NCBI RefSeq assembly: GCF_943736985.1
Contig: NZ_CALSFS010000002.1
Span: 1 to 64,000 of the forward strand
DNA: 64,000 nucleotides
Reading direction: 5' to 3'
Source of the DNA: Clostridium sp. Marseille-Q2269
Lineage (GTDB): Bacteria; Bacillota; Clostridia; Clostridiales; Clostridiaceae
Of the stretch, positions 1 to 47,145 are shown piece after piece. The notes under the pieces are model-generated. The model was given only the letters and a program-made list of their open reading frames with translations. It had not been told where the DNA came from and did not search any database. Within the stretch, counting starts at the first letter, position 1; each line of letters opens with the position of its first letter. A program made the position numbers and the translations under genes.

Positions 1-160
1 GTCCTGTTTACTTTACGCTTAAATCTTAGTTTACAAATAAAGTATTCTAATTATTTTTCTAGATATCTATTTTTCCTAAAAGTATTCCTTGTTTTAATCC
101 ATTTAAAGACTGTTATATAATTTTTCAGTTTCATATAAATATTTTAAATTTAAATATAAA

Positions 161-323
161 CAGAATTGTTGGCTTTAGAGGGAGTTTTACTCCTTATAAG
201 TCGTTATCCTTTAGGAAAAAATCGTTATACAACTTTCAAGAAAAGCAGAGAGTCCAAATCTTCGATTTGGTGCGAATGGCTTTCACAGAGTGCGATGGGA
301 GTACTAGAGGGGGTAGTCGTCGG
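161..323. mobile_element. 163-bp insertion inside repeat copy L
   Basis: Present in copy L and absent from copy R, where the flanks are contiguous. The insert is bounded by ATAAA at 156-160 and again at 324-328, as a target duplication would be. It is noticeably richer in G than its surroundings and holds a small stem with loop CTTCG at about 256-272. There is no ORF. It resembles a miniature insertion of unknown type. Loss from copy R is the alternative, but the duplicated ATAAA favours gain. Confidence 0.6.
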
Positions 324-544
324 ATAAAACAATTGGCGTAGCCAGGAAATTAATATAGGTAAATTTTATCAATGATACACTTACTCCGTATGCTACGCAT
401 GAATTTTCTAACGAAAATTTTTTAAAAGCCTTTTCTTTTAATAATAAAAATAATTGTAGATTTTATGTAACAAAGAGGATTAAAATGCTCATTTTGTACT
501 TCCTATTCCATAGAAAATTACGTTTAAATAGTTATATTATCTTT

Positions 545-759
545 CCTTAGATTAAAAAATTGGGATATGTGGTGTAAAAGGCATTTGAACAAAATTAGAG
601 ATCCTTATTTGTTTTCCCAAAATATATGTACATTCCAAATTATTGTTTGAGCGTTTAGCGAGTTATAATTTGGAATCATATATTTTAAGGAAAAACAAAT
701 TAGAATCTCTTATTGAAGTGAATTGCCTTTCAAGCCACATATCCTTTTTTAATCTAAGG
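545..759. repeat. 215-bp near-palindrome (long hairpin) in copy L
   Basis: Both ends read CCTTAGATTAAAAAA on opposite strands, and matching continues inward through GGATATGTGG, AAAGGCA, AGAGAT, TTTGTTTT and AAATATATG blocks to ATTCCAAATTAT beside the tip. As RNA it would fold into one ~95-bp imperfect stem with a small tip around GAGCGTTTAGCGAG. The same structure occurs at 46382-46597. Confidence 0.85.
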
Positions 760-792
760 TAGTGACTTTTTACGTCACAATTTTCTTAAGTA

Positions 793-821
793 TTGACAAA
801 AGTATGAGGTAACAATAAAAT
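793..821 (+). promoter_or_regulatory. Probable vegetative promoter of mnmA
   Basis: TTGACA at 793-798 and TAAAAT at 816-821 with a 17-bp spacer, 48 bp before the mnmA start and just outside the end of the repeat homology. Confidence 0.6.
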
Positions 822-868
822 AATCATATTGAATTATAGTAGATTAAAATAGGGAATTAGGTGATAAA

Positions 869-1930
869 ATGTCAAAGGGAACCGTTGCATTAGCTATGAG
901 TGGAGGAGTAGATAGTTCTGTATCTGCATATATATTAAAGGAAAAGGGTTATGATGTAATTGGAATTCATATGGATTTGTGGAGAGATGAAAGAAAAGAA
1001 TATTGTAATAAATCTGCAGCAGAGGATGCAAGAAAAGTAGCAGATAAATTAAATATTCCTTTTTACATTATAAATATTGAAAAGGAATTTAAAGATAATG
1101 TCATTGATTATTTTGTAGATGAATATTTAAGTGGAAGAACTCCTAATCCTTGTGTAGCTTGCAATAAAACTATAAAATTTGAAGCTTTTTTCAATGCTGC
1201 TAAACAATTTGGAGCGGATTTTATGGCTACAGGACATTATTGCAGAATAGAAGAGAGAAATGAAAGAAAAGTTATAGTTAAAGCTGAAGATGACAAAAAA
1301 GATCAAACTTATATGATGTATAATTTAAAACAATATCAGCTAGAGAGAACTATAATGCCTTGTGGTGAATATAAAAAAGATCACATAAGAAAAATAGCTG
1401 AAGACATAGGATTAGATGTTTATAATAAAAAGGATAGTCAAGAAATATGTTTTATACCAGATAATGATCATGGAGCATTTATCAAAAGAGTCTATAAAAA
1501 GAAAATAAAGCAGGGAAATTTTGCTGATAAACAAGGGAATATAATTGGTAAACATAAAGGTATAATATATTATACTATAGGACAAAGAAAAGGGTTAGGA
1601 ATTGCTTTAGGAAAACCAGCTTATGTAATAGATATAAACCCTGTTACTAATGAAGTAGTCATAGGAGATGAAAAAGACATTTTTCATACAGAATTAATAG
1701 CAAAAGCTGTAAACTTTATTTCTTTTGATAAATTGGAAGAACCAATAGAATTAGAAGCAAAGGTAAGATATTCTGGTAAGCCATCTAAAGCTACAATAAT
1801 ACCATTAGAAGATAATAGGGTGAAAGTAGTATTCCAGCATAAACAAAGGGCTATAACAAAGGGACAATCTGTAGTATTTTATGATAAAGATATGCTAGTT
1901 GGTGGAGGAATAATAGAAGGGATAGCATAA
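869..1930 (+). CDS. mnmA: tRNA-specific 2-thiouridylase MnmA
   Basis: This cytosolic enzyme adds sulfur to U34 of tRNAs for Glu, Gln and Lys, activating the base with ATP and taking persulfide sulfur from a cysteine desulfurase relay. The 353-residue product has the usual family length. The PP-loop ATP motif SGGVDSS is at residues 11-17. The catalytic Cys95 lies in NPCVAC and the second conserved Cys194 in SQEICFIPD. The C-terminal third fits the OB-fold/tRNA-binding region. The ATG is preceded by AGGTGAT. It stands alone, with its own promoter, directly downstream of repeat copy L. Confidence 0.96.
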
Positions 1931-2065
1931 TAAAATCTTTGCTTATAATTTTAAATATTAATTTTAAATTTTTATCTATAAAGAGCTATTATTGTACTAA
2001 GGGTTCTTTTTAGGTTTATTTATATGGTATTTATATGAATTTATTCAATAATTTTAAATAATGGT

Positions 2066-2107
2066 AAAAATCTATGAATAACAACCAGTTATCATAGATT
2101 TTTTTGT
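2066..2107 (+). terminator. Rho-independent terminator
   Basis: AAAAATCTATGA pairs with TCATAGATTTTT and is followed by a T tract. It lies 135 bp after mnmA and ends 79 bp before the next gene's start, so it insulates the regulator from mnmA readthrough. Confidence 0.75.
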
Positions 2108-2185
2108 GCTATAGTAAATATATATTTAATAAATTTATATATCAATAACAATAAATTATTTATAAATGTGAGAGGAGGTTAAAAG

Positions 2186-4090
2186 TTGGAAATTTATAAT
2201 CACCATGAGATAATAAAAAAATCTCACAATAGATGTATCAAATATGGTATAAAAAAAGAGAAAGTTTTTCCTACAACAATTCTTAAAGAGGATAAATTAA
2301 GAGTATTGTTGGAAAGAAACGGTGAGCTAATAAAAATTGCAAAGCATTTTATAAAAATACTTTATGATTTTTTAAAAGGATCTGGATTTGCATTATATCT
2401 TACAGATAAAACAGGTTTTCCACTTATAATTATAGGGGATGAAGATATAATAAAAGATATGGCAGATATGGGGATTGTAGAAGGTGCTGATATGAGTGAA
2501 AAGAGTACAGGCACCAATGCTATAGGTACTGCTCTTAAAGAAGATCGTTCCATTCAAATTTCGGGAGATGAGCATTACATTTATGCTTATAATGTATGGA
2601 CATGTTCTGCAGCTATCATTCACAATAAAGAAAGAAGTATAATTGGATGTCTTAATTTAACTGGAAGACGTCAATTGGTTCATCCTCATTCATTAGGACT
2701 AGTTGTAGCAGCGGTAAAGTCTATTGAAAATGGTTTAGAGGCAGAAAAATCGGAAAATGAACTTTTTAAAACACATCAATATTTGAATAAAGTTATAGAT
2801 TCTATAAATTCAGGAATGTTTGCTGCAGATATAAATGGATTAATAAAATCCATAAATAACAGTGCATGCATAATGTTGAATATTAAAAAAGAAAATATTA
2901 TGAAGATAAGGACACAAGATATTTTATGTAATTGGGAATATATATTAAATGCACTTAACAGTGGAAAAAAGTATGAAAATAAGGAGATTATATATTCAAA
3001 TAATAATAAAAAGAAAAGATTTAATATAACAGCCTACCCTATAAAGAATAAAAATGGAACTATAACAGGTGCAGTTGTAATGTTTAAAGACATGATGAAT
3101 GTATACAATTTGGTTAATAAATATACAGGAATGATTGCTACATATACCTTTGATGACATAGTTGGTAAAAGTGAAAAGTTTATAACAACAATAAGACAAG
3201 CCAAGAAAATATCTAATAGTCCTTCTACGGTTCTTATTCAAGGTGAAAGTGGAACAGGAAAAGAGCTTATTGCCCATTCAATACATAATAATAGCAACAG
3301 AAAAAATAATAGTTTTGTAGCTATAAATTGTGGAGCTATACCAAAGAGCCTAATAGAAAGTGAACTTTTTGGATATGAAGAGGGTGCCTTTACTGGTGCT
3401 AAACGTGGTGGACATGTAGGCAAATTTGAACTTGCTAGTGGAGGCACTTTGTTTTTAGACGAAATAGGGGAAATGCCATTACATATGCAAGTTAATCTTT
3501 TAAGGGTACTTCAAGAAGGTTCTTTTACAAGAATAGGTGGAAATAAATATATAAACATAGATATAAGAATAATTGCTGCTACAAATAAAGATTTAAAAGC
3601 TGAAGTAAAAAAAGGTACTTTTAGAGAGGATTTATATTATAGATTAAGTGTAATTCCCATATGTGTTCCCCCATTGAGAGAAAGAAAAGAAGATATAGAA
3701 ATACTCATAGAATATTTTCTAAAGGTTAAATCTATAAAATTAAACAAACCTATACCTAATATAAGTGAGGATTTATACGAAGAACTTATAAATTACAGAT
3801 GGCCAGGAAATGTTAGAGAAATAGAAAATTGCATTGAAAACATAGTAAATATGGATGGAAATATTTCTTTTGATTTTGAAACAAAATTTTTGGATAAGAC
3901 ATGGGAGAATATAGACAAAAACAATCTAGAAATTGAATTATGCTCTTTAGTACAACTAGAAAAGAGAGCAATAATAAATTCCATACAAAAATGCCATGGT
4001 AATATTACTAAAGTTTCTAAGATTCTGGGTATAAATAGAAGTACTTTATATTCAAAAATAAAAAAATACAATATAATTTTAAAAAGATAA
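2186..4090 (+). CDS. AcoR-like sigma-54 activator (GAF-PAS-AAA+-HTH)
   Basis: Enhancer-binding activator of RNA polymerase sigma-54. The 634-residue product has an N-terminal GAF-like sensor (about 30-190), a PAS-like segment (about 195-310), an AAA+ core (about 320-560) with Walker A GESGTGKE and the sigma-54 contact loop GAFTGA, and a Fis-type helix-turn-helix at the C-terminus (SKILGINRSTLYSKIKKY). The TTG start is chosen because AGAGGAGG lies 7 bases upstream. The next gene, an alcohol dehydrogenase, has a -24/-12 promoter, so that gene is the likely target. The activating signal cannot be read from the sequence; acetoin or an alcohol/ketone would fit the family. Confidence 0.9.
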   Translation: MEIYNHHEIIKKSHNRCIKYGIKKEKVFPTTILKEDKLRVLLERNGELIKIAKHFIKILYDFLKGSGFALYLTDKTGFPLIIIGDEDIIKDMADMGIVEGADMSEKSTGTNAIGTALKEDRSIQISGDEHYIYAYNVWTCSAAIIHNKERSIIGCLNLTGRRQLVHPHSLGLVVAAVKSIENGLEAEKSENELFKTHQYLNKVIDSINSGMFAADINGLIKSINNSACIMLNIKKENIMKIRTQDILCNWEYILNALNSGKKYENKEIIYSNNNKKKRFNITAYPIKNKNGTITGAVVMFKDMMNVYNLVNKYTGMIATYTFDDIVGKSEKFITTIRQAKKISNSPSTVLIQGESGTGKELIAHSIHNNSNRKNNSFVAINCGAIPKSLIESELFGYEEGAFTGAKRGGHVGKFELASGGTLFLDEIGEMPLHMQVNLLRVLQEGSFTRIGGNKYINIDIRIIAATNKDLKAEVKKGTFREDLYYRLSVIPICVPPLRERKEDIEILIEYFLKVKSIKLNKPIPNISEDLYEELINYRWPGNVREIENCIENIVNMDGNISFDFETKFLDKTWENIDKNNLEIELCSLVQLEKRAIINSIQKCHGNITKVSKILGINRSTLYSKIKKYNIILKR

Positions 4091-4108
4091 AATTTAATAT
4101 GAAATATT

Positions 4109-4187
4109 AATATTGTTTAAAAAAGCAACAATGTTGTTAAAAGCAACACTATTTTAATGAAAAACTGTTGTTTTTTTAAACAATATT
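4109..4187 (+). promoter_or_regulatory. Large inverted repeat: terminator and/or activator site
   Basis: Two 22-bp arms (4109-4130 and 4166-4187) match at 21 of 22 positions. Inside lies a smaller TGTTG/CAACA hairpin, so GCAACA or its complement occurs repeatedly. The second arm runs into a T tract, giving a terminator for the activator gene. The repeated GCAACA boxes 55-130 bp upstream of the -24 element also look like an upstream activating site. The two roles are not exclusive. Confidence 0.6.
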
Positions 4188-4241
4188 TTTTTATAAAATA
4201 ATTTTAGTGTGAAATGTAAGCTATAGGTTAAAAAAATACTT

Positions 4242-4257
4242 TGGCATGTTAATTGCT
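4242..4257 (+). promoter_or_regulatory. Sigma-54 (-24/-12) promoter of adh
   Basis: TGGCATG at 4242-4248, four bases, then TTGCT at 4253-4257. This matches the TGGCAC-N5-TTGC consensus with correct spacing, 52 bp upstream of the adh start and just after a sigma-54 activator gene. Confidence 0.85.
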
Positions 4258-4308
4258 AAATGAAAGTATATAAATATTTTAAAATTATACTTAGGAGGGA
4301 ATTATATT

Positions 4309-5370
4309 ATGAAGGGTTTTGCAATGTTAGGTATAAATAAAGTAGGTTGGATTGAAAAAGAAAATCCAAAGGCAGGTTCATATGACGCAATAGTACGTCC
4401 ATTAGCTATATCACCTTGTACATCAGATATACATACCGTTTTTGAGGGAGCTTTAGGTGATAGGCATAATATGATATTAGGACACGAATCTGTGGGCCAG
4501 GTTGTTGAAGTTGGCAGTGAAGTAAAAGATTTTAAACCTGGTGATAAAGTTATTGTTCCTGCAATAACTCCTGATTGGAGATCTTTAGAAGTTCAAGCTG
4601 GATTTCATCAACATTCAAATGGTATGTTAGCAGGTTGGAAATTTTCAAATTTTAAAGATGGAGTATTTGCAGAATTATTTCATGTAAATGATGCAGATAT
4701 GAATCTTGCAACTTTACCTGATAATATACCATTGGAAAGTGCGGTTATGATAACTGATATGATGACTACAGGATTTCATGGAGCAGAATTAGCGGATATA
4801 CAATTAGGATCAAGTGTTGTAGTAATTGGAATAGGTGCTGTTGGTTTAATGGCTATAGCAGGTGCTAAATTACGAGGGGCTGCTAGAATTATAGGAGTAG
4901 GAAGTAGGCCAGTTTGTGTTGAAGCTGCAAAATTTTATGGAGCATCAGATATTGTAAATTATAAAAATGGAGATATAGTTAAACAAGTCTTAGAATTGAC
5001 TAATGGAGAAGGTGTTAACCGTGTCATTATGGCAGGAGGTGGAGTTGATACTTTAAGACAAGCAGTGTCAATGGTTAAACCAGGAGGAACAATTTCAAAT
5101 ATTAACTATCATGGCACTGGTGAAACACTTCCAATACCTCGTGTAGAATGGGGATGTGGGATGGCTCATAAAAGCATTAGAGGAGGTCTTTGTCCTGGTG
5201 GACGTCTCAGAATGCAAATGCTTGCAGACCTTGTAAAATATAATCGTGTGGATTTAAGCAAATTGGTTACACATGTATTTGAAGGTTATGATAATATAGA
5301 AAAAGCTCTTCTGCTGATGAAGGATAAACCAAAGGATTTAATTAAACCTGTAGTATTACTAAATAAATAA
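4309..5370 (+). CDS. adh: NADP-dependent secondary alcohol dehydrogenase
   Basis: Zinc enzyme that interconverts secondary alcohols and ketones (for example 2-propanol/acetone) with NADP(H). The 353-residue sequence closely follows the C. beijerinckii/Thermoanaerobacter enzyme. Catalytic zinc ligands Cys37, His59, Glu60 and Asp150 are all present. The Rossmann motif GIGAVG is at about 174-179, and Ser199-Arg200 match the NADP-phosphate pocket of that family. AGGAGGG precedes the ATG. It is monocistronic: a sigma-54 promoter upstream, a terminator downstream. The physiological substrate is inferred from the family. Confidence 0.95.
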   Translation: MKGFAMLGINKVGWIEKENPKAGSYDAIVRPLAISPCTSDIHTVFEGALGDRHNMILGHESVGQVVEVGSEVKDFKPGDKVIVPAITPDWRSLEVQAGFHQHSNGMLAGWKFSNFKDGVFAELFHVNDADMNLATLPDNIPLESAVMITDMMTTGFHGAELADIQLGSSVVVIGIGAVGLMAIAGAKLRGAARIIGVGSRPVCVEAAKFYGASDIVNYKNGDIVKQVLELTNGEGVNRVIMAGGGVDTLRQAVSMVKPGGTISNINYHGTGETLPIPRVEWGCGMAHKSIRGGLCPGGRLRMQMLADLVKYNRVDLSKLVTHVFEGYDNIEKALLLMKDKPKDLIKPVVLLNK

Positions 5371-5416
5371 AACTTAAATATAGTTTGTGTAATTTGAAAT
5401 AAATGTATAATATTTT

Positions 5417-5452
5417 ATAGTGTAATAAAGTTTTTTATTGCACTATTTTTTA
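5417..5452 (+). terminator. Rho-independent terminator after adh
   Basis: ATAGTGTAATAAA pairs with TTTATTGCACTAT and is followed by T-rich sequence. Confidence 0.85.
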
Positions 5453-5643
5453 TTGTTTATAATGATGATATATTAATTTATTATGCTATAAAGCCTTTGT
5501 AATTATAGTTATTATATAGTAATTTATATATTTTAAAATGTATAAATTGCTATATAATAAAATAATAAAGTTAAATAAAATGAAAAAATCCTTATAAATA
5601 TGTTAAAATATTAAGGTCGTCTTTATATTTGAGGAGGTGCATT

Positions 5644-7926
5644 ATGGCTATTGAAAAAGAAAATTTTAATATTGAAAAAGAAAATCTTAATAAAACTATA
5701 AAATGGATAAAAGGAAAGATAGCATCTTTAAATGAAAGAGAAGAAGAAATATCAAATAAGATAAATCAAATAAATAAGGAAGTTAAGGGAGCATATAATT
5801 ATGAAGTAGAAGCATTGTATAATTCTTTACAAATAAATAAAAAAGATGTAGATTCTTATAATTCATCAGTTTCTATACCTTATTTTGCTAGAATTGATTT
5901 TAAAGAAAAATTAAGAGATAGTGAGAGTTTTTATATAGGAAAAGTAGGATTATTAGATGAAGATGACAAAGAAGAGATGGTTGTAGATTGGAGAGCTCCT
6001 ATAGCAGATCTTTATTATAGTGGAGTACAAGGTAAAGCTTCCTATGAAGCTCCTATTGGAAATATAGAAGGTGAACTTTTACTTAAGAGAAAATTTATTA
6101 TAAAAAATGAAAAATTAATAGATGCTTTTGATGAAGGAATAAATGAAATTATATTAAATTTTAATGAAGATAATGAAGAAAAAGCTTTAATAGATGAATT
6201 TTTAAAGATAAACTTAGAAGAGAATAGAGGAAATAAATTAAAAGATATAGTTTCAACTATACAAAAAGAACAAAATGATATTATAAGAGCAAATATGTAT
6301 AAGCCACTTATAATACAAGGTTCAGCAGGTTCAGGTAAAACCACAATAGCCCTTCATAGAATAGCGTATTTATTGTATAAATATAAGAATAAAATTACAG
6401 GAGAAGACATAATAATATTAGCTCCAAATGAATTGTTTTTAGATTATATATCTGAAGTTCTTCCTAATTTAGGAGTAGATAAAGTAAAACAGAGCACTTT
6501 TAATAAATTTTCTCAAGAAATATTAAACTTTAATTATGAGATAATAGATAAGGATAAAAAGTTAGTTAAAATTATAGAAGATAAGAATAATAAAGAAAAT
6601 AAATTTATAACTAATAGTAGTAAATTAAAAGGGTCTTTAGTTTATAAAAAGATGTTAGATAGATATATAAAGTATTTGGAATTAAATGATATATTTATAG
6701 ATGATATAGAAATAGACGGGTATGTATTGTTCCCTTCTAGAGAAATAGTAAGACTTTATAAGAATGATTTAAAACATCTTCCGTTAAACAAAAGAAAGAT
6801 TGAAATAGGAAGATATTTAAAGAATAAAATAGAAGAAAAAATTGAAAATGTGTGGAATGATATAGATAGAGATTATATTTTAAAAATAAGAAAAACAAGA
6901 GAACGATATGAAGGAAAACAGCAAAGGGATAATATTATAGAATTATATGAAGAAAGAGATGAAAAGAAGGAAAAAATAAAATTAGAAGCAGAATTAGTAT
7001 TGAATGATACCATTAAAGAATGGCTAATTGATGATGTGGTAGAAGTTTATAGAGATATGTACATTGATGAAGAAAACTTAAATTATGCAACAAATGGCAT
7101 AATACCAGAAGTATTAGTCAGTTATATGAAAAATAAAATAGAAAAAGAAATAGATCAGTGTAAAATAGACGAAGAAGATCTAGCAGCCATCTTATATTTA
7201 AAGATAAAAATAGATGGAGTAGATGATTATAAATTTGCACATATGGTTATAGATGAAGCTCAAGATTATAGTCCTTTAGAATTATATGTTTTGAAGTTGA
7301 TTTCTAAATCTAGAGGATACACTATAGTAGGTGATTTAGGGCAAAGTATATATTATTATAAAGGTATAGAAGACTGGGGCAAACTAGTTAAAGAGGTTTA
7401 TGAAGAGGGAGAATACATTCCATTAAAACAAAGTTATAGATCTACAGTAGAAATAGTGAATTTTGCCAATAAAGTATTAAGAAAACAAAAAAACAATTTA
7501 GAACCAGCAAAAGCAGTATTAAGGCATGGGAAATATCCAGAAAGTATTCAATATCAGGACGAAGAAGATTTTTATAAAAAATTAAATAATGTTATTGAAT
7601 ATATAGAAAAAAAAGCAGACAAGACTATAGCAATAATTTGTAAGGACTATGAACAATGTAAAAATCTAAAAAAGTTTTTATATTTGAAAGATCAAGAACA
7701 ATGGGAAATAGTAGATAAAAATACTGAAATATTACCCAAAAGAATAATTATCCCATCTTATATTACAAAGGGATTGGAATTCGATTGTTCTATAATTTAT
7801 GATTGTAGCCAAGAAAACTATGGAGAAAATGAATTAGATAAGAAGATTTTATATGTAGTATTAACAAGAGCATTGCATGAAGAATATGTATTTTATAGAG
7901 ATAAGATAACTAAACTATTAACATAA
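5644..7926 (+). CDS. helD: HelD-like UvrD-family helicase (RNA polymerase recycling factor)
   Basis: Superfamily 1 ATPase of the HelD group, which in Firmicutes binds RNA polymerase and frees stalled complexes. The 760-residue product starts with a long charged coiled-coil arm (about 1-60), then has Walker A GSAGSGKTT near 230, the Walker B-like VIDEAQDYSPLE near 540, motif GDLGQSIYYYKG, and a UvrD C-terminal part ending VVLTRALHEEY. The ATG at 5644 is preferred over a TTG at 5629 because GAGGAGG sits 6 bases before it. No partner genes are nearby. A related DNA-repair helicase is the alternative. Confidence 0.85.
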   Translation: MAIEKENFNIEKENLNKTIKWIKGKIASLNEREEEISNKINQINKEVKGAYNYEVEALYNSLQINKKDVDSYNSSVSIPYFARIDFKEKLRDSESFYIGKVGLLDEDDKEEMVVDWRAPIADLYYSGVQGKASYEAPIGNIEGELLLKRKFIIKNEKLIDAFDEGINEIILNFNEDNEEKALIDEFLKINLEENRGNKLKDIVSTIQKEQNDIIRANMYKPLIIQGSAGSGKTTIALHRIAYLLYKYKNKITGEDIIILAPNELFLDYISEVLPNLGVDKVKQSTFNKFSQEILNFNYEIIDKDKKLVKIIEDKNNKENKFITNSSKLKGSLVYKKMLDRYIKYLELNDIFIDDIEIDGYVLFPSREIVRLYKNDLKHLPLNKRKIEIGRYLKNKIEEKIENVWNDIDRDYILKIRKTRERYEGKQQRDNIIELYEERDEKKEKIKLEAELVLNDTIKEWLIDDVVEVYRDMYIDEENLNYATNGIIPEVLVSYMKNKIEKEIDQCKIDEEDLAAILYLKIKIDGVDDYKFAHMVIDEAQDYSPLELYVLKLISKSRGYTIVGDLGQSIYYYKGIEDWGKLVKEVYEEGEYIPLKQSYRSTVEIVNFANKVLRKQKNNLEPAKAVLRHGKYPESIQYQDEEDFYKKLNNVIEYIEKKADKTIAIICKDYEQCKNLKKFLYLKDQEQWEIVDKNTEILPKRIIIPSYITKGLEFDCSIIYDCSQENYGENELDKKILYVVLTRALHEEYVFYRDKITKLLT

Positions 7927-8196
7927 AATTATAAAAACTTATTGACAAAATTATTATAAATAAACAAAATTATGACAAATATTTAACAATATTGAAGAGA
8001 TTTTAAATTTTAGAAATATTAAAATCCTAAAAACTCTACTTTATATTTTATAAAAAATTTATCAAAAGCTTTATATAAATTTATCACCTTAAGACTTACA
8101 GATTAATTTTTTATAATAAAATATAATACTTAAGTTAAGTATTACTGCATATTTTAGGCAAATAAAAAGATCCGCATTTACATGCGGAGGGGAGTA

Positions 8197-34746: not shown

Positions 34747-34813
34747 TAGTTGTTGTTTATATACTTATGAAATGAGATATTTGTCAGTACATAAATATGT
34801 GGGGGTAATAATT

Positions 34814-37369
34814 ATGTATGAATTTATATTAAATGGAAAAAATGTATCTGTTGCAGAGGACATTAATTTACTGGAATACTTAAGAGATTATGAAGATCTA
34901 ACTTCAGTAAAAAATGGATGTGCAGAGGGTGCATGTGGAGCTTGTATGATACTGGTTGATGGCAAGGCTGTCAGAGCATGTATATTTACAACTGCAAAGG
35001 CACATGGTAAAGAGGTTAAGACTGTAGAGGGATTAACAGAATTTGAAGAAAAGGTTTTCACATGGGCTTTTTCTAAAGCTGGAGCAGTTCAGTGTGGATT
35101 CTGTATACCAGGGATGATAATAAGTGCAAAATCTCTTTTAGATAAAAATTTAAATCCAAATAAAAAGGAAATTAAGAATGCTATTAGAGGAAATGTATGT
35201 AGATGTACAGGATATGTTAAGATAATAAAAGCCATTGAAATGGCTGCAGAAGCATTTAGAAATGGTGAAATTTCATATGATGAAGAATATAAAGGAAAGA
35301 TAGGAGAAAATATTCCGAGAATAGATGCAAAAGATAAGATTTTAGGTATAGGAAAATATGTGGATGATATAAAAATAGAAGGTATGATTTACGGTTCTGC
35401 CCTGAGATCTGAATATCCTAGAGCTTTAGTAAAAAGTATTGATATAAGTGAAGCTTTAAAACATCCACAGGTTGAGGCAGTTCTTACTGCAAAAGATATC
35501 CCGGGAAATAGATTTATAGGGCATATTGTAAAAGATTGGCCAGCTATGATAGGTATAGGTGAAGAAACAAGATATGTTGGTGATGCAGTAGCTTTGGTTG
35601 CAGCAAAAAGTAAAAAAGCTGTGAGAGAAATACTTAATCTTATAAAGGTAGAGTATGAGGAGTTAGAGCCACTTTGTAATCCTAAAATGGCAATGGTAGA
35701 TGGAGCGCCCAAAATTCATTCAAATGGGAATGTATTAACAGTAGAAAAAGTTAATAGAGGTAATGTAGATGATGCAATAAATAGTTCTAAATATGTTGTT
35801 ACTAATCATTATTCCACTCCTTTTACAGAACATGCTTTTTTAGAACCAGAAAGTGCATTAGCTATGCCAGATGGAGATGGAGTGACCATTTATACAGGAA
35901 GCCAAGGTATATATGATGAGCAAAGAGAAATTTCTGAGCTTTTAGGATTGCCAAAAGAAAAAGTAAGGTGTATTAGCAAATATGTTGGAGGAGGTTTTGG
36001 TGGAAAGGAAGATATGAGTGTACAACATCATGCTTCTCTTCTTGCTTTCATTATTAAAAAACCTGTGAAAATAACGTTAACCCGTAAAGAAAGTATGAAA
36101 ATCCATCCTAAAAGACATGCCATGGAGATGTCTATTACTACAGCTTGTGATGAAAATGGGAATTTAACTGCATTTAAAGCAGATATTATAGCAGATACCG
36201 GAGCATATGCATCTTTAGGAGGACCAGTACTTCAAAGAGCTTGTACTCATGCAGCGGGACCATATAGATGTCCCAATGTACAGATAAAAGGTACTGCTGT
36301 GTATACAAACAATCCTCCAGCAGGAGCTTTTAGAGGTTTTGGAGTAACTCAATCAGTTTTTGCATCAGAAAGTAATTTAAATCTTTTAGCTGAAAAAGTA
36401 GGTATATCTCCATGGGAAATAAGATTTAAAAATGCTATAGAACCAGGACAAGCACTTCCTAATGGACAAATTGCTGATAAAGGTACAGCAATTAAAGAGA
36501 CTATATTAGCTGTAAAGGATATATATGAAAACAGTAAATATGCAGGTATAGCATGTTGTATGAAGAATTCAGGTGTTGGTGTTGGTATTCCTGATATAGG
36601 TAGATGCGATTTAGAAGTACTAAATGGAAAAGTGCATATAAAAACTAGTGCTGCGTGCATAGGTCAAGGGCTAGGAACAATTCTCACACAGATAGTATGT
36701 GAAACTACAAATATATTGCCAAGTTATGTAGTATTAGATCCACCAGATACATTTAGAACTCCAAATTCAGGTACAACTACAGCCTCAAGGCAGACAGTAT
36801 TTACTGGAGAAGCTACAAAAATAGCGGCACTAAAGCTTAAAGATAGACTTTTAACTAAAACATTAAAAGAATGTGAAGGAGAAGAGTTTTATGGTCAATA
36901 TGAAGGAATTACGGATCCTATTAATTCAAAAAAGAAAAATCCAGTAAGTCATGTGGCTTATGGATATGCAACACAGGTGGTTATACTTAATAAAGATGGA
37001 AAAGTAGACAAAGTTATTGCAGCTCATGACGTGGGAAAAGCTATAAATGTTACTAATGTGGAAGGTCAGATTGAAGGTGGAATAGTTATGGGACTTGGAT
37101 ATGCATTTACAGAGGATTATCCATTAAATAAATCTGTTCCAACTGCTAAATTCGGAACATTAGGTTTATTTAGAGCTACGGATATACCTGAAATTGAACC
37201 TATAATAATTGAAAAGAATACAAATGACTTAGCTTATGGTGCAAAAGGAATAGGAGAAATTACAACCATACCAACAGCACCTGCATCTCAAGGAGCTTAC
37301 TTAAAGTTTGATGGTGAATTCAGAACTAAACTTCCTCTAGAGAATACGGCTTATAGAAGAAAAAAGTAA
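34814..37369 (+). CDS. xdh: Selenium-dependent xanthine dehydrogenase (Fe-S plus molybdenum domains)
   Basis: Molybdenum hydroxylase that interconverts hypoxanthine, xanthine and urate. One 851-residue chain fuses two [2Fe-2S] domains (GCAEGACGACMILVDGKAVRAC near 39-60 and QCGFC...VCRCTGY near 96-140) to the molybdopterin domains (about 170-851) with GGGFGGKED, GAFRGFG and the GAKGIGEIT block ending in the catalytic Glu. There is no FAD domain, as in E. coli XdhD. The accessory genes yqeB, yqeC, xdhC and mocA point to the selenium-dependent type. The ATG at 34814 is chosen over one at 34772 because the conserved domain starts there and GTGGGGG lies upstream. Confidence 0.93.
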   Translation: MYEFILNGKNVSVAEDINLLEYLRDYEDLTSVKNGCAEGACGACMILVDGKAVRACIFTTAKAHGKEVKTVEGLTEFEEKVFTWAFSKAGAVQCGFCIPGMIISAKSLLDKNLNPNKKEIKNAIRGNVCRCTGYVKIIKAIEMAAEAFRNGEISYDEEYKGKIGENIPRIDAKDKILGIGKYVDDIKIEGMIYGSALRSEYPRALVKSIDISEALKHPQVEAVLTAKDIPGNRFIGHIVKDWPAMIGIGEETRYVGDAVALVAAKSKKAVREILNLIKVEYEELEPLCNPKMAMVDGAPKIHSNGNVLTVEKVNRGNVDDAINSSKYVVTNHYSTPFTEHAFLEPESALAMPDGDGVTIYTGSQGIYDEQREISELLGLPKEKVRCISKYVGGGFGGKEDMSVQHHASLLAFIIKKPVKITLTRKESMKIHPKRHAMEMSITTACDENGNLTAFKADIIADTGAYASLGGPVLQRACTHAAGPYRCPNVQIKGTAVYTNNPPAGAFRGFGVTQSVFASESNLNLLAEKVGISPWEIRFKNAIEPGQALPNGQIADKGTAIKETILAVKDIYENSKYAGIACCMKNSGVGVGIPDIGRCDLEVLNGKVHIKTSAACIGQGLGTILTQIVCETTNILPSYVVLDPPDTFRTPNSGTTTASRQTVFTGEATKIAALKLKDRLLTKTLKECEGEEFYGQYEGITDPINSKKKNPVSHVAYGYATQVVILNKDGKVDKVIAAHDVGKAINVTNVEGQIEGGIVMGLGYAFTEDYPLNKSVPTAKFGTLGLFRATDIPEIEPIIIEKNTNDLAYGAKGIGEITTIPTAPASQGAYLKFDGEFRTKLPLENTAYRRKK

Positions 37370-37652: not shown

Positions 37653-37795
37653 ATAATCTATAATATTCGCACCATTACGAATTATATTATAAAAAATATG
37701 ATAAAAAATCAAATAAATACGAATGATATTATAAAAACAGATTGATTTATTAAGAAATATATGTTACCATGAGTACATATAATAAAGAAATATAT

Positions 37796-37866
37796 CATCC
37801 ATATAATCTCAATAATAAGGTTTGAGAGTTTCTACGAGGAGACCATAAATTTCCTGTCTATGGATG
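37796..37866 (+). promoter_or_regulatory. Purine riboswitch, guanine type, of the pur operon
   Basis: Aptamer core ATATAATC, AATAAGG loop, AGTTTCTAC, ACCATAAAT loop and GTCTATG, closed by CATCCATA/TATGGATG. The specificity base is C (37858), predicting guanine. The base before it is T where A is usual, and the second loop reads CCATAAA instead of CCGTAAA, so it is a mild variant. Confidence 0.9.
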
Positions 37867-37896
37867 AATCTTAGCTATGCTTTAGCAGTGCGCTTA

Positions 37897-38451: not shown

Positions 38452-39155
38452 TGGAAAAAAAGGATATGTTATATGAAGGAAAAGCTAAAAAAATATTTGG
38501 AACATATGATAAGGATACAGTTATTGTTTATTATAAAGATGATGCCACAGCTTTTAATGGGGAAAAAAAGGGTGCTATTGAAGATAAGGGAGTTATGAAT
38601 AACTCTATAACCTCAATGTTATTTGAACTTTTAGAAAAAAAAGGTGTAAAAACACATTTCATAGAAAAGATAAATGAAAGAGAACAACTTTGTAAGAAAG
38701 TAGAAATAGTTCCACTAGAGGTTATAGTTAGAAATATAGCAGCAGGAAGCATGGCAAAAAGATTAGGTCTTTCAGAAGGAAGAAAGTTAGATACTACTGT
38801 ATTTGAAATAAGTTATAAAAATGATGATTTAAATGATCCACTTATAAATGATCATCATGCAGTGGCAATAGGGCTTACAACTTTTGAAGAATTAAAAGAA
38901 ATGTATTTCATAGCAGAAAAAGTAAATAACACTTTAAAAGAATTTTTTGATGAACAAGGAATAATTTTAGTTGATTTTAAAATAGAAATAGGAAGATTTA
39001 ATGGAGAACTTCTTTTGGCAGACGAAATATCACCAGATACTTGCAGATTGTGGGATAAGAGTACGAGAGAAAAATTAGATAAAGATAGATTTAGAAGAGA
39101 TATGGGGAATGTAAAAGAAGCTTATATGGAAATATTAAAAAGAATTAATAATTAG
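38451..39155 (+). CDS. purC: SAICAR synthetase PurC
   Basis: ATP-dependent ligase that joins CAIR and aspartate. The 234-residue product has [11 protein letters not shown], the signature [19 protein letters not shown] and [14 protein letters not shown]. Length and motifs match the family. Translationally coupled to purE. Confidence 0.96.
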
Positions 39156-39250
39156 AGATTTATAGGTGAAAATTAATTTGTTGACAGTTTAAAATAATTT
39201 ATAAAATGCTTAATTTTAAAAATAGAAACTAGGTAGGGAGTAAAAAGAGT

Positions 39251-40693: not shown

Positions 40694-40860
40694 ATAATTT
40701 AAGTAGTGTAAATTTGCGTAAAAAAACTGATTAATGGGTGGCACTAAAATTGATTTATATTTAAATGATTATTTTTTAATCATCTCAAAGTTATACTAAA
40801 TTTAACATAGTTTTTTAAATTTGTAGAATAACTAGTAATACAAAGAAGGGAATGTTATTC

Positions 40861-41856
40861 ATGGTATCTTATAAAGAAGCGGGAGTTAATATAGAAGAAG
40901 GCTATAAATCTGTAGATCTTATAAAAAAACATGCTTCAAAGACATTTACAAAAGGAGTACTAAATAATTTAGGAAGTTTTGCAGGTATGTTTGAACTTCC
41001 TAAGTATAAAAATCCTGTTCTAGTATCAGGTACTGATGGGGTTGGAACTAAATTGGATATAGCATTTAGAATGGGAAAATATAATACAGTTGGTATAGAC
41101 TGTGTAGCTATGTGTGTAAATGACATATTATGTCATGGAGCTAAGCCATTATTTTTCTTGGATTATATTGCCTGTGGAAAATTAGAGGCAGAAGTTGCAG
41201 GTCAGCTCGTAGAAGGGGTTAGTAATGGGTGTGTACAAGGAGAATGTGCATTAATAGGTGGAGAAACAGCAGAAATGCCAGGATTTTATAAAGATGGGGA
41301 ATATGATATAGCTGGTTTTGCTGTAGGATTAGCAGAAAAAGATGAAATAATAGATGGAAGCAAAATACAACATGGTGATATATTAATAGGAATAGCATCA
41401 TCAGGACCACATAGCAATGGATATTCTCTTATAAGAAAACTAGTAGAAGATTTACATAAAGATTTTGAAGGAGAAAAAATAGGCAGTACTCTTTTAACTC
41501 CTACAAAAATATATGTAAAACCTGTAATAAAACTTTTAGAGAAATATAATGTAAAAGGTATGGCTCATGTAACTGGGGGAGGTTTTTATGAAAACATACC
41601 AAGAATGTTTAAAGAGGATTTTACAGCAGTTATAAATAAAAAATCTTACCCAATGCCAAGCATATTCAATTATCTAATGAGCCTAGGGATTGAAGAAAAT
41701 CAGATGTACAACACTTTTAATATGGGGATTGGTTTTGTACTGTGTGTAGATGAAAAAGATGCTGAAGATATAATAAAAGATCTGATAGAAATGGGAGAAA
41801 CGGCTTATAAAATAGGGTATGTTAAAAAAGGAAATAAATCTGTGGAATTGATTTAA
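40861..41856 (+). CDS. purM: AIR synthetase PurM
   Basis: Closes the imidazole ring: FGAM to aminoimidazole ribonucleotide with ATP. The 331-residue product has YKEAGVNIEEGY at the start, VSGTDGVGTKLDIAF and GGETAEMPGFY. An ATG at 40852 touches the AGAAGGG ribosome site, so the ATG at 40861 is preferred; it also gives the usual MVSYKEAGVN start. The 167-bp gap after purF is AT-rich without a clear hairpin terminator. Confidence 0.95.
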   Translation: MVSYKEAGVNIEEGYKSVDLIKKHASKTFTKGVLNNLGSFAGMFELPKYKNPVLVSGTDGVGTKLDIAFRMGKYNTVGIDCVAMCVNDILCHGAKPLFFLDYIACGKLEAEVAGQLVEGVSNGCVQGECALIGGETAEMPGFYKDGEYDIAGFAVGLAEKDEIIDGSKIQHGDILIGIASSGPHSNGYSLIRKLVEDLHKDFEGEKIGSTLLTPTKIYVKPVIKLLEKYNVKGMAHVTGGGFYENIPRMFKEDFTAVINKKSYPMPSIFNYLMSLGIEENQMYNTFNMGIGFVLCVDEKDAEDIIKDLIEMGETAYKIGYVKKGNKSVELI

Positions 41857-41993
41857 AAAATCATAGCACATAGGTAAACAATTTATAATAAAAATTTGGA
41901 GTAGATTATATTTAGTTTTAAAATAATTAGTTGGGGAATTAATTATTTATAGAATATATAGAAAAATTTTTATTTATATTAGAGGAGAATAAC

Positions 41994-42614
41994 ATGTTTA
42001 AAATTGCAGTGCTTGCCTCTGGAGGTGGAAGCAATCTTCAATCTATAATAGATAAAATAGAAGATGGATACATAAAAAATTGTAAAATAGAGATATTTAT
42101 AGGAGATAGACCTAATATTTATGCTATAGAAAGAGCAGAAAAAAAGGGAATTGAAACTTTAATTTTAGATAGAAAAGTATATAAAAATGGTCTATCTAAT
42201 AAAATATGTGAATGTTTATATGGAAAGGTAGATCTAATAGTTTTAGCAGGATGGTTGTCTATATTAAATGGGGATTTAATAAATAAATTTGAAAATAAAA
42301 TAATAAACATTCATCCTTCACTAATACCAAGCTTTTCTGGAAATGGAATGTATGGCATAAAAGTGCATGAGAAAGCTTTAGAATATGGAGTGAAATTATC
42401 TGGATGCACTGTTCATTTTGTAGATGAAGGTACAGATAGTGGCCCTATAATAATACAAAAATCAGTACCAGTATTTGAAGATGATACACCAGAATTATTA
42501 CAAAGAAGAGTTTTAGAAAAAGAACATATAGCATTACCTGAAGCTGTAAAACTTATAAGTGAAGGAACAGTAAAGTTGCAAGGAAGAAAAGTTTTAATAA
42601 ATAAAGGCCTATAA
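41994..42614 (+). CDS. purN: Phosphoribosylglycinamide formyltransferase PurN
   Basis: Transfers the formyl group of 10-formyltetrahydrofolate to GAR. The 206-residue product shows VLASGGGSNLQSII at the N-terminus, the catalytic IHPSLIPSFSG block (Asn-His) and GCTVHFVDEGTDSGPII with the catalytic Asp. AGAGGAG precedes the ATG. Confidence 0.96.
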   Translation: MFKIAVLASGGGSNLQSIIDKIEDGYIKNCKIEIFIGDRPNIYAIERAEKKGIETLILDRKVYKNGLSNKICECLYGKVDLIVLAGWLSILNGDLINKFENKIINIHPSLIPSFSGNGMYGIKVHEKALEYGVKLSGCTVHFVDEGTDSGPIIIQKSVPVFEDDTPELLQRRVLEKEHIALPEAVKLISEGTVKLQGRKVLINKGL

Positions 42615-42813
42615 TATAAAATTTAAAAGTATTACTTTAACATATAAGAATGAAAATCTTATTAGGATAATTGGATTATTTATATATTAAAGTTTGCAAT
42701 TTACACATTAAAATAGTGCCACTTATATGTTTTCTTTAAAAGATGATGTATTGGTGGCAATTCCTTATGAAATAAATATAAATAATAAAACCATTAAAAT
42801 TGGGGGAGTTAAA

Positions 42814-44313
42814 TTGATAAAAAGAGCATTAATAAGTGTATTTGATAAAACAGGTGTTTTAGATTTAGCAAAATTTTTGGAGAATAAAGGTGTAGAAATA
42901 ATATCTACAGGTGGAACTTACAAACATTTAAGAGAAAATGGAATAAAAGTAATAGATATAGAAGAAGTAACAAATTTTCCCGAAATGTTAGATGGAAGAG
43001 TGAAAACATTAAATCCTTTAATTCATGGAGGTATATTGGCCATAAGAGATAATGAAGAACATATGAGGGTCATAGAGAAAAAAGGAATTAAGCCTATAGA
43101 TATGGTAGTGGTTAATTTATATCCATTTTTTAATAAGGTACAGGAAGATTTAAATTTTGACGAAAAAGTAGAATTTATAGATATTGGTGGACCTACTATG
43201 ATAAGAGCAGCGGCTAAAAATTTTAGAGATGTAGTAGTGTTAACAGATACAAAGGATTATGAAAATGTAATAAATGAGATAGAAGAAAGTAATGAAGTTA
43301 GTATAAAAACTAGAAAAAAATTAGCAGGGAAAGTTTTTAATCTAATGTCAGCTTATGATGCAGCTATAAGTAATTTCTTATTAGATGAGGAATACCCAGA
43401 ATATTTAACTCTATCTTATAAAAAGAATATGGATTTAAGATACGGAGAAAATCCGCATCAAACAGCAGCTTATTACACATCTACTGTTGGAAAATACCCC
43501 ATGAAAAATTTTGAAAAATTAAATGGGAAAGAGCTATCTTATAATAACATAAAAGATATGGATATAGCTTGGAAAACTGTTTGTGAATTTGAAGAAGTAG
43601 CTTGTTGTGCATTAAAGCACAATACACCTTGTGGTGTGGCAATAGGAGAAACATTAGAAGAAGTTTACACTAAGGCTTATGAATGTGATCCTGTATCTAT
43701 ATTCGGTGGAATAGTTGCTTTTAATACAACTGTAGATAAAGAAACAGCAGAAAAGCTTTCAAAGATATTTTTAGAAATAGTTGTAGCACCGGATTTTGAT
43801 GAAGAAGCTCTAGAAGTATTAAAGAAAAAGAAAAATCTAAGGGTTATAAAATGTGAAGAAAAATCTACAGAGGAAAAGGATATGGCAAAAGTAGATGGTG
43901 GAATACTAGTGCAGCAGGGAGACAATAAATTATTAGATGATACAAAAGTAGTTACAGAGAAATATCCAACAGATAAAGAGATGAAAGATCTTATATTTGG
44001 TATGAAGGTAGTTAAGTATGTAAAATCTAATGCAATTGTAGTAGTTAAAGATGGCATGGCAACAGGTGTTGGAGCAGGCCAAGTAAATAGAATATGGGCA
44101 GCAAAAGAAGCTTTAGATAGAGCAGGACATGGTGCAGTTTTAGCTTCAGATGCTTTCTTCCCATTTAAAGATGTAGTAGAAGAAGCAGCAAAATGGGGAA
44201 TAAAGGCTATAATTCAACCAGGTGGATCTATAAGAGATGAAGAATCTATAAAGGAATGCAATGAAAATGGTATTGCTATGGTATTCACAGGAATAAGACA
44301 CTTTAAACATTAG
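42814..44313 (+). CDS. purH: Bifunctional AICAR transformylase/IMP cyclohydrolase PurH
   Basis: Catalyses the last two steps to IMP. The 499-residue product has an N-terminal MGS-like cyclohydrolase domain ([45 protein letters not shown]) and a C-terminal transformylase domain ([41 protein letters not shown]). The TTG at 42814 is chosen: GGGGGAG ends 5 bases before it and the conserved domain begins there. An in-frame ATG at 42727 would add 29 unrelated residues. Confidence 0.94.
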
Positions 44314-44410
44314 ATTTAGATATTTCTATATAAGTGTATTTTTAAATGACTTGTCTAAGTGTTGTATAAATTAATGCATAAGAATTAAATATGTTAAAGG
44401 GGTAAAAAGC

Positions 44411-45652
44411 ATGAAAATATTAATAATTGGCTCAGGGGGAAGAGAGCATGCTATAGCATGGAAAATTGGTAAGAATCCTTTAGTGGAAAAAATATTTTGT
44501 GCTCCTGGGAATGGTTGCACTGAGCTAGAGTATAAGTGTGAAAATGTTAATATCTCTGATACTGAAGAACTGTTAACATTTGCTTTAAAAAATAACATAG
44601 ATTTAACTATTGTAGGACCAGAGATTCCTTTAATGGAAGGAATAGTAGATTTATTTAAAGAAAATGGACTTAACATATTTGGACCAGATAAAAAAACAGC
44701 TTTATTAGAAGGAAGCAAGGCATTTGCAAAAGATTTTATGAAAAAATATAATATAAAAACTGCATCTTATGAAGTGTTTCAAGAAGAAAAAGAAGCTTTA
44801 AATTACTTAGAAAGCGTTGAGCATCCAGTTGTAATAAAAGCAGATGGATTAGCAGCAGGAAAAGGTGTTGTTATAAGTAAATCTTTTGAAGAAAGCAAGA
44901 AGACCTTAGAAGAATTTATGATTAAAGACAAATTTAAAGGAGCAGGTAAAAAAGTTGTTATAGAGGATTTTTTAGAGGGGCCAGAAGCTTCAATATTATC
45001 TATAACAGATGGAGAAACTATAATACCTTTTATATCTTCAAAGGATCATAAGCAAATATATGATGGAGGACTAGGCCCTAATACGGGTGGCATGGGAGTT
45101 GTTGCTCCAAATTCTTATTGTACAAAAGAGGTATTAAAAGATTTTAATGAAAATATATTACAACCAACATTAAGGGGATTAGAGAAAGAGCAACTGAAAT
45201 TTTCAGGTATAATTTTTTTTGGAATAATGCTAACTAAAAAAGGACCATATCTTTTAGAATATAATTTAAGAATGGGAGATCCAGAAACAGAAGCTGTTCT
45301 TCCTTTAATGGAAAGTGATTTATTGGATTTAATAATGAAAGCAATGAATAAAGAATTAAAATCTACAAATATAGTATGGAAAAAAGCATATTCTACTTGT
45401 GTTGTAGCAGTATCTAAAGGATATCCTGAAAATTATGAAAAAGGATTTTTAATAAAAGGAATAGAAAATCTAGAAGGTGTATTTGGAGCAGGCGTTAAAT
45501 TAGAACATAACCACATAGTAACTAATGGGGGAAGAGTATTGTGTACTCAAGCCATAGGAAAAACTTTAGATGAAAGTATAAATAAGGCGTATGAAAATAT
45601 GGAAAAGATCGATTTTGAAGGTATATATTACAGAAAAGATATAGGTAAATAA
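44411..45652 (+). CDS. purD: GAR synthetase PurD
   Basis: ATP-grasp ligase joining phosphoribosylamine and glycine. The 413-residue product has IIGSGGREHAIAWK, KADGLAAGKGVVI, DGGLGPNTGGMGVVAP and EYNLRMGDPETEAVLPL. Last gene of the pur operon. No purL, purQ, purS, purB or purK lies in this cluster, so those steps must be encoded elsewhere. Confidence 0.96.
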   Translation: MKILIIGSGGREHAIAWKIGKNPLVEKIFCAPGNGCTELEYKCENVNISDTEELLTFALKNNIDLTIVGPEIPLMEGIVDLFKENGLNIFGPDKKTALLEGSKAFAKDFMKKYNIKTASYEVFQEEKEALNYLESVEHPVVIKADGLAAGKGVVISKSFEESKKTLEEFMIKDKFKGAGKKVVIEDFLEGPEASILSITDGETIIPFISSKDHKQIYDGGLGPNTGGMGVVAPNSYCTKEVLKDFNENILQPTLRGLEKEQLKFSGIIFFGIMLTKKGPYLLEYNLRMGDPETEAVLPLMESDLLDLIMKAMNKELKSTNIVWKKAYSTCVVAVSKGYPENYEKGFLIKGIENLEGVFGAGVKLEHNHIVTNGGRVLCTQAIGKTLDESINKAYENMEKIDFEGIYYRKDIGK

Positions 45653-45657
45653 TAAAG

Positions 45658-45698
45658 AGCAGATACATATAAAGGAGTTTTGTTTATATGTATCTGCT
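45658..45698 (+). terminator. Hairpin after purD
   Basis: AGCAGATACATATAAA pairs with TTTATATGTATCTGCT. There is no T tract immediately after, so it may be an mRNA 3'-end stem rather than a classical terminator. Confidence 0.55.
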
Positions 45699-45950
45699 GC
45701 TGTTAGCTTTAAAAAAATTAAGTTTAACTAGTAAATAACTTATACCATGTTCATATCTTATTTCATTTGAAGAACTTAAATTAATATTGTTAAAAGCCTT
45801 CAATAAAGAATATTAGAAATTATAATCTGAAAACACTAGATAAAATAATTGAATTCAATTTACAAAAATACAATTAATTTCAAATTATCTATAATGCTAT
45901 TTATGGTATAATATTATTAAGATATTTTATTTATAAGGAGTGAAGATATT

Positions 45951-46355
45951 TTGCCCAAATGTGAGGTATGTGGCAGAGAAGGAGCTGAAATACATCATAT
46001 AATTCATAAATGTGAAGGCGGAATGGATTTAGAAATAAATTATAAATATTTATGTGGAAGACATCATAGAGGAAAACACAGTCCTCATAAAGATCATAAT
46101 ATAGATGTAAGTTATAAACTAGAATTACAAAATACATTGGAAAAGTTATTTATAAAAGAATATTATTCTTTCAATAGTATTCAGCATATATTAAATATAA
46201 ATAAAAACAAATGCAAAAAAATAGTACAAGATTTGAAATTATATAAAGAAGGTTATAAATCTAAAGATATAATATATAAACTTATGGGAAAAAAACATTA
46301 TAATGAGTACAATTTATTTCATTGCCAAGAATTTATAGCATTAGGTGTAATATAA
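45951..46355 (+). CDS. Small HNH-motif protein
   Basis: A 134-residue protein whose first 45 residues form a zinc-HNH module: CEVCG, then EIHHIIHKCEGG, then CGRHHRGKHSPH. The remaining part looks helical, with two possible DNA-binding helix pairs (FNSIQHILNINKNKCKKIVQDLK and GYKSKDIIYKLMG). It could be a nicking or homing-type nuclease or a DNA-binding protein; no partner gene adjoins. The TTG start follows AAGGAG by 10 bases. It ends exactly where the inverted repeat copy R begins. Confidence 0.75.
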   Translation: MPKCEVCGREGAEIHHIIHKCEGGMDLEINYKYLCGRHHRGKHSPHKDHNIDVSYKLELQNTLEKLFIKEYYSFNSIQHILNINKNKCKKIVQDLKLYKEGYKSKDIIYKLMGKKHYNEYNLFHCQEFIALGVI

Positions 46356-46381
46356 GAAAATTGCGACGTAAAAGGTTACTA

Positions 46382-46597
46382 CCTTAGATTAAAAAAGGGA
46401 TATGTGGCTTGAAAGGCAATTCACTTCAATAAGAGATTCTAATTTGTTTTTCCTTAAAATATATAATTTCAAATTATAACTCGCTGAACGCTCAAACAAT
46501 AATTTGGAATATACATATATTTTGGGAAAACAAATGAGAATCTCTAATTTTGTTCAAATGCCTTTTACACCACATATCCCAATTTTTTAATCTAAGG
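46382..46597. repeat. 216-bp near-palindrome in copy R
   Basis: Counterpart of 545-759. Ends read CCTTAGATTAAAAAA on both strands, arms about 95 bp. Differences from copy L occur in both arms while the overall pairing is kept. Confidence 0.85.
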
Positions 46598-46923
46598 AAA
46601 GATAGTATAACTATTTAAACGTAATTTTCTGTGGAATAGGAAGTGCAAAAGGAGGATTTTACTCCTCTTTGTTACGTAAAATCTGCAATTATTTTTTCAT
46701 TAAAAGAAAGGGCTTTAAAAAAATTTTCGTTAGAAAATTCATGCGTAGCATGCGGAGTAAGTATATCATTCATAAAATTTACATATGTTAATTTTTATAC
46801 TAAATATTTATGCATTAGCAATAAAAATTCGTATGATCAATTTCCTGGCTACGCCAATTGTTTTATATTTAAATTTAAAATATTTATATGAAACTGAAAA
46901 TTTATATAACAGTCTTTAAATGG

Positions 46924-47145
46924 ATTAAAACAAGGAATACTTTTAGGAAAAATAGATATCTAGAAAAATAATTAGAATACTTTATTTGTAAACTAAGATT
47001 TAAGCGTAAAGTAAACAGGACGTTTACTTAGGACTAGTTGCCACAGGACGTGGCATTAGACCGTTAGCTTAAATCTTAGGATACAAATATTAGTATTCTT
47101 TATTTTTATAGCCATCTATTGACTAAAAATATTCCCTGTTTTAAT
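46924..47145. repeat. Second large hairpin of copy R with two AGGAC-loop stems at its tip
   Basis: 46924-47002 is an imperfect inverted repeat of 47067-47145 (arms about 79 bp, starting ATTAAAACA). Between them lie two short perfect stems: AAGTAAAC-AGGAC-GTTTACTT near 47009-47029 and TGCCAC-AGGAC-GTGGCA near 47039-47055. The stems differ but the five-base loops are identical. Copy L begins inside the first of these stems at the window edge. Confidence 0.8.

Follow-up and report, generated by a model that had tools for sequence, protein, structure and literature searches.

The window analyzed here is the stretch of 64,000 nucleotides at positions 1 to 64,000 of contig NZ_CALSFS010000002.1 from Clostridium sp. 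Marseille-Q2269, and it contains two related sequences in opposite orientation, which we term copy 1 and copy 2, with approximately 45 kb between them. Copy 2 is complete and consists, in plus strand order, of a long near-palindrome (B), a linker of small hairpins, and a second near-palindrome that carries a match to the Rfam family TwoAYGGAY (RF01731) at its tip; copy 1 is cut by the start of the window. A preliminary description had recognized this pair and had left it as either a structured RNA family or a non-autonomous mobile element. The features that bear on the choice are the following.

1..786, minus strand: element copy 1, delimited by blastn and truncated where the window begins; the TwoAYGGAY tip is expected before base 1.
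169..323, no strand assigned: block of 155 bp found in copy 1 only, in the linker, with small hairpins.
545..759, minus strand: near-palindrome B of copy 1, 215 bp, 136 bits.
770..788, minus strand: terminal repeat of copy 1, with TA at 787-788.
45951..46355, plus strand: small HNH-domain gene of 134 amino acids adjoining copy 2 (PF01844 at 21.7 bits, cut-off 21.4).
46352..46371, plus strand: left terminal inverted repeat of copy 2 as compared, identical to the right end at 17/20 positions, with TA at 46353-46354 as the presumed target site.
46355..47181, plus strand: element copy 2, complete, 827 bp, with inverted repeats at its ends and TA on either side; the alignment with copy 1 goes no further left than 46353.
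46382..46597, plus strand: near-palindrome B of copy 2, 216 bp, matching its own reverse complement with 156 bits over 46355-46630, with a computed fold of -85 kcal/mol.
46598..46923, plus strand: linker of copy 2 with small hairpins, containing the block 46795-46838 found in copy 2 only.
46924..47145, plus strand: second near-palindrome of copy 2, 222 bp, 119 bits, forming the long stem of the TwoAYGGAY hairpin.
46960..47114, plus strand: RF01731 TwoAYGGAY match, 57.1 bits against a cut-off of 43, with AGGAC tips at 47017-47021 and 47045-47049.
47165..47184, minus strand: right terminal inverted repeat of copy 2 as compared, with TA at 47182-47183 as the presumed target site.

By blastn, positions 347-788 match the reverse complement of 46353-46794 with 93.9% identity over 443 columns and positions 1-168 match that of 46855-47021 with 98.2% identity over 168 columns, while a 28-bp module located between these two larger blocks (324-351) is identical (100%) to 46839-46866. 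These alignments bear out the inverted pair that had been placed at 1-788 and 46356-47020, with the correction that copy 2 does not end at 47020 but extends to 47181 and includes the second long near-palindrome, the counterpart of which in copy 1 would fall before base 1. The indels had been assigned to loops and linkers, and the copy-specific blocks, 169-323 in copy 1 and the 44 bp of 46795-46838 in copy 2, both fall in the linker; Rfam gave no match inside the former at E values up to 5. Closed open reading frames (ORFs) reach at most 53 amino acids in copy 1, where those crossing the window start were not counted, and at most 82 amino acids in copy 2, in agreement with the earlier statement that no ORF is conserved. 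No closed ORF in either copy is thus longer than 82 amino acids, as in a transposase-free miniature inverted-repeat transposable element (MITE), and two copies were counted within 64 kb of host DNA.

The near-palindrome of about 215 bp that had been described in each copy is present at 545-759 and 46382-46597, and the folding energies of both regions are far better than those of dinucleotide shuffles (z of -6.4 for 1-869 and -7.9 for 46356-47020, with none of 20 shuffles equal in either case). The window contains nine near-palindromes of at least 60 bits, and each of the three that reach 100 bits lies inside the element copies; a Markov copy of the window (n = 1) has none. At this higher threshold there are six in a 627-kb plasmid of Lachnospira eligens that is considered below, none in five other records (400 kb each, none of them whole and none with an RF01731 match), and none across seven Markov controls (one per sequence). 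The six weaker palindromes of the window (62-74 bits) were set aside, five of them having 11-14% G+C and one lying within an ORF.

The ends of copy 2 read ATAAGAAAATTGCGACGTAA on the left and, as the reverse complement, ATAATAAAATTACGACTTAA on the right, and copy 1 has TTAAGAAAATTGTGACGTAA at the end that lies within the window; a transposon that mobilizes the element would be expected to have ends like TAAGAAAATTGCGACGTAA. An inverted end match of 17/20, as is found between the ends of copy 2, was reached by 4 of 300 Markov controls, the terminal repeat having been spotted by eye before the region for this comparison was picked. The dinucleotide TA adjoins all three visible ends (both of copy 2 and one of copy 1), and homology between the copies ends at the terminal repeat at the single end that is visible in both. 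If the TA at 46353-46354 and that at 47182-47183 are taken as duplicated, the element corresponds to 46355-47181. The stop codon (TAA) of the HNH gene is then made up of TA and the first base of the element, and if the element is removed and one TA is kept the HNH frame extends by seven residues (...GVIYVVQHMI) before it reaches a stop. The HNH protein has no relative in phages, plasmids or viral contigs that covers at least 80% of it, and its C-terminus is left uncovered, hence the extended frame is consistent with insertion but is not proof of it. Judged from the sequence, the HNH gene is probably the insertion target of copy 2; the possibility that it is a component of the element was rejected because homology between the copies does not reach into it. 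In copy 1 the B end faces the start of mnmA.

The RF01731 match in copy 2, which was found with lax Rfam filters and was not listed by a fast default scan of the window, is the tip of the 222-bp near-palindrome. The Rfam model has 168 positions, whereas here the stem continues into near-palindromes of 222-274 bp (in copy 2 and in L. eligens) that lie beside a second palindrome. Both tips in copy 2 read AGGAC and lack one base relative to the AYGGAY consensus of the family. A second RNA family, Bacillaceae-1 (RF01690), aligns at 47012-47072 with 26.9 bits and does not reach its cut-off of 35; the two families have the CAGGACG tip in common, though on opposite strands. MicroRNA families that matched the palindrome in the lax Rfam mode were discarded, as they were far under their cut-offs and any long hairpin would fit them. 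According to the available excerpts of the literature, TwoAYGGAY was first published in 2010 and was rated as probably an RNA and probably not cis-regulatory (PMC2864571); the type given for it in Rfam is cis-regulatory. TwoAYGGAY and the reverse complement of Bacillaceae-1 were later proposed to be CsrA-binding small RNAs (sRNAs) in Clostridia, the external stem of TwoAYGGAY being poorly conserved (PMC4333381, in excerpt). The excerpts on the motif report no tested function. In a text search for literature naming TwoAYGGAY, none of the matches listed tied it to mobile elements, nor did the listings of related searches, and on the basis of these searches its position at the tip of a mobile palindrome would be a new link.

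RF01731 was found in 3 of 16 records (E 0.05), and its absence from the remainder is soft in that some were scanned with stricter filters and one scan returned no match at all. Two of the three positive records are the same L. eligens plasmid from two strains, with an identical element. In NC_012780 the match (99399-99565) has 104.5 bits and sits in a 274-bp near-palindrome, and a second near-palindrome of 226 bp (99745-99970) lies 126 bp from it. The order is that of the window, B preceding TwoAYGGAY on the TwoAYGGAY strand, and blastn detects no similarity between the two elements at an E value of 1e-3. In addition to the TwoAYGGAY pair, this plasmid has another two palindromes of at least 100 bits paired at 276 kb and one each at 278 kb and 500 kb; given five others across its 627 kb, the chance of a neighbor within 126 bp is approximately 0.2% by an arithmetic that treats palindromes as independent even though they tend to pair. 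The pair at 276 kb (276091-276721), itself an observation apart, lacks an RF01731 match and has a partial duplicate at 278212-278681. The 276-kb palindrome is copied 2 kb away, at 278 kb, with 95% identity over 306 columns, and its partner is partly copied there with 91% identity over 119 columns, which indicates that the pair was duplicated together. The 500-kb palindrome has partial relatives at 318 kb (80%) and 454 kb (71%). Palindromes contain the stop codons of RS10945 and RS13805, the final codons of the latter being part of the 278-kb copy, and the stop of RS11850 is where the 306-column homology ends.

The third positive record is a 40-kb viral contig, of which a fetched piece (L049) has 60% G+C. 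It has TwoAYGGAY matches of 43.7 bits (above the cut-off) and 39.2 bits in opposite orientation near both of its ends (L067 and L068). No palindrome above 37 bits was found in these three pieces, so that the other two lineages show the two-palindrome layout and this one does not. Among the loci returned by pattern scans, at least four pairs in both hairpins were found in 1 of 35 (L026) and 1 of 28 (L049), and another scan returned only L026; three loci were dismissed on their folds, and two others and L001 on their palindromes and Rfam results. L026 is a viral contig with three Bacillaceae-1 matches of 74-77 bits (680-746, 7848-7914, and 7939-8005) in both orientations. Two of them are divergent within one inter-ORF gap, an arrangement that would be odd for an RNA gene and natural for a dispersed repeat. 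The best palindrome in L026 has 51 bits over 152 bp, which together with the low score in the window sets Bacillaceae-1 apart from the elements described here.

We propose that the two copies probably represent a non-autonomous MITE-like mobile element of approximately 0.83 kb, with two long near-palindromic hairpins, a variable linker, and short imperfect terminal inverted repeats at TA sites. What is observed is a pair of copies that have an end in common, together with inverted repeats, flanking TA, the two palindromes, an RF01731 match, and the corresponding layout in L. eligens; the mobile reading is favored because of the common end, the terminal inverted repeats, the TA at three visible ends, and the stop codon that is completed by the element. 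The earlier alternative of a mobile element is accordingly the one that we prefer, and that of a structured RNA survives in part: the RF01731 cut-off is passed, but wobble-type mismatches in the arms of the window show no bias toward RNA on that strand. Transposition, the type of transposase, transcription, and any regulatory effect are what we infer beyond this. A transposase encoded elsewhere would recognize the ends and insert the element at TA, and from the TA alone it would probably be of the IS630/Tc1 type. Copy 2 would have landed at the 3' end of the HNH gene, where its first base would complete the stop codon. In read-through transcripts both hairpins would fold, with the outer hairpin displaying two TwoAYGGAY loops. 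The likely outcome, by analogy with ERIC and Correia elements, would be RNase processing or altered mRNA stability, and the loops might possibly bind CsrA.

Several known systems are similar in part. The bacterial MITEs ERIC, RUP, and Correia/NEMIS likewise have imperfect stem-loops of some length, inverted repeats at the termini, and TA ends, and their target duplication has a putative counterpart here (PMC2229807, in excerpt); they are frequently located near gene ends (PMC10969869, in excerpt). These three have lengths of 107-155 bp in the excerpts, whereas the element described here is 827 bp long and has a linker between two distinct long hairpins as well as a tip that matches an Rfam RNA. 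REP/BIME sequences are likewise palindromes outside genes, but REPs are of 20-40 bp (PMC3733652, in excerpt). Both copy 2 and the L. eligens element exceed the cut-off of RF01731 and in that respect belong with this family.

A number of points weigh against mobility. Copy 1 is seen only in part, and the terminal inverted repeats are known from one pair of ends, copy 2 being the sole complete copy. TA is a common dinucleotide in this DNA, and two bases are weak evidence of a target-site duplication. A pattern derived from the three ends, with up to three mismatches, finds eight sites in the window in comparison to 3.1 expected (2 of 100 shuffles reach eight); they comprise the three element ends and five poorer sites, hence the end motif by itself is no safe marker. 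No further copy of the element was detected in plasmids or phages at an E value of 1e-5, and at an E value of 10 the element was matched by 50 plasmid records, the best of which covers 7% of it. Patterns derived from the element gave none or chance matches in viral contigs, and one scan of genome contigs gave one unrelated match. The L. eligens element has no convincing end-to-end repeat (10/16 at best), and its mobility therefore rests on the 276/278-kb duplication, which local duplication could explain.

Possible, though in our judgment unlikely, is that the copies arose by duplication of an RNA gene whose large structured product would bind CsrA as a decoy, like CsrB or RsmZ, with TwoAYGGAY as the binding domain and B as a second domain. 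The RF01731 score above the cut-off and the excerpted proposal of a CsrA-binding sRNA in Clostridia (PMC4333381) both speak for it. Also in its favor, B differs between the copies at 3 of its 164 paired positions and at 4 of its 52 unpaired ones, and pairing is preserved in both pairs that changed, but outside B, among 97 pairs of the copy 2 fold, 69 are the same, 9 are kept through change, and 19 are broken. Of the 19 broken pairs, 12 are within 46783-46894, a stretch in which the alignment is unreliable because each copy has a block of its own there; elsewhere 7 are broken vs. 3 kept through change. If the arms were maintained by selection for pairing in RNA from one strand, they should show more G-T than A-C mismatches, and the TwoAYGGAY stem of L. 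eligens does so (13 vs. 4), whereas the window shows no such bias (4 G-T vs. 6 A-C in B, 2 vs. 7 in the TwoAYGGAY stem); the arms of B in L. eligens have 1 G-T vs. 4 A-C, all of these arms having been aligned ad hoc. Terminator-like hairpins exceed the shuffle mean (two vs. 0.2 in 45600-47300 and one vs. 0.3 in 1-900), and a promoter-like site at 875-846 on the minus strand (10/12) reads into copy 1 in the orientation of TwoAYGGAY, but promoter-like sites as a whole are at or under the shuffle level (8 vs. a mean of 14.0, and 5 vs. 4.7).

The hairpin tips are similarly divided. GGA is more common on the TwoAYGGAY strand of copy 2 (16 vs. 5), and GGA at hairpin tips is shared with the CsrB/CsrC and RsmX/Y/Z sRNAs. 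CsrB-type RNAs carry many GGA tips, in contrast to the two in the RF01731 part of the element, and 3 of the 16 GGA are unpaired in the copy 2 fold. The one-base shortfall of both tips from the family consensus also speaks against an RNA gene. Overall the tests of RNA-level selection give a mixed picture.

We consider it improbable that an element of mobile origin is now retained as a 3' untranslated or intercistronic RNA structure, an RNase site or stabilizer, with its position after stop codons being functional. Palindromes in L. eligens closely follow the same-strand stops of RS10945, RS11850, RS13805, and RS12825, copy 2 follows the HNH stop, and both the cleavage of Correia elements by RNase III and effects that ERIC has at the 3' ends of genes are cited in PMC10969869, in excerpt; but copy 1 has its B end turned toward the start of mnmA and not toward a stop, and selection against gene damage would also leave insertions near gene ends. 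It is most improbable that the pair serves as a switch. Inverted blocks of 168 columns (98%) and 443 columns (94%) could recombine and flip the 45-kb segment, as had also been suggested, but GC skew lends such a flip no support: every 4-kb block between 20 and 56 kb, a range that includes both flanks of copy 2, has a positive value, as does 1-16 kb, the value being negative at 16-20 kb and close to zero beyond 56 kb. None of the results connects the two copies functionally, and the scanned neighbors (mnmA, the HNH gene, and a gene of the metallo-beta-lactamase fold) are not recombinases, the left neighbor of copy 1 lying beyond the window.

Returning to the MITE-like element, we tentatively suggest a broader role, one that we do not regard as likely, in which TwoAYGGAY and perhaps Bacillaceae-1 would be tips of mobile elements that are composites of palindromes, occur in Clostridia and beyond, and spread CsrA-type GGA hairpins, thereby seeding or titrating CsrA regulation. 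The placement of TwoAYGGAY at the tip of a mobile palindrome could explain a scattered distribution of the motif and its poorly conserved outer stem (PMC4333381, in excerpt), and covariation in such RNA families might then in part reflect the upkeep of a DNA palindrome. The question of the function of TwoAYGGAY also becomes testable, as to whether the element moves and whether its tip binds CsrA.

Two further features of the window were recorded. A selenium-dependent xanthine dehydrogenase is encoded at 34772-37369 (TIGR03311, 1596.7 bits) and is followed by a purine riboswitch at 37779-37880. A RAGATH-18 RNA match at 59902-59962 on the minus strand (60.5 bits against a cut-off of 44.9) lies within the 5' part of an ORF on the same strand (58585-59979).

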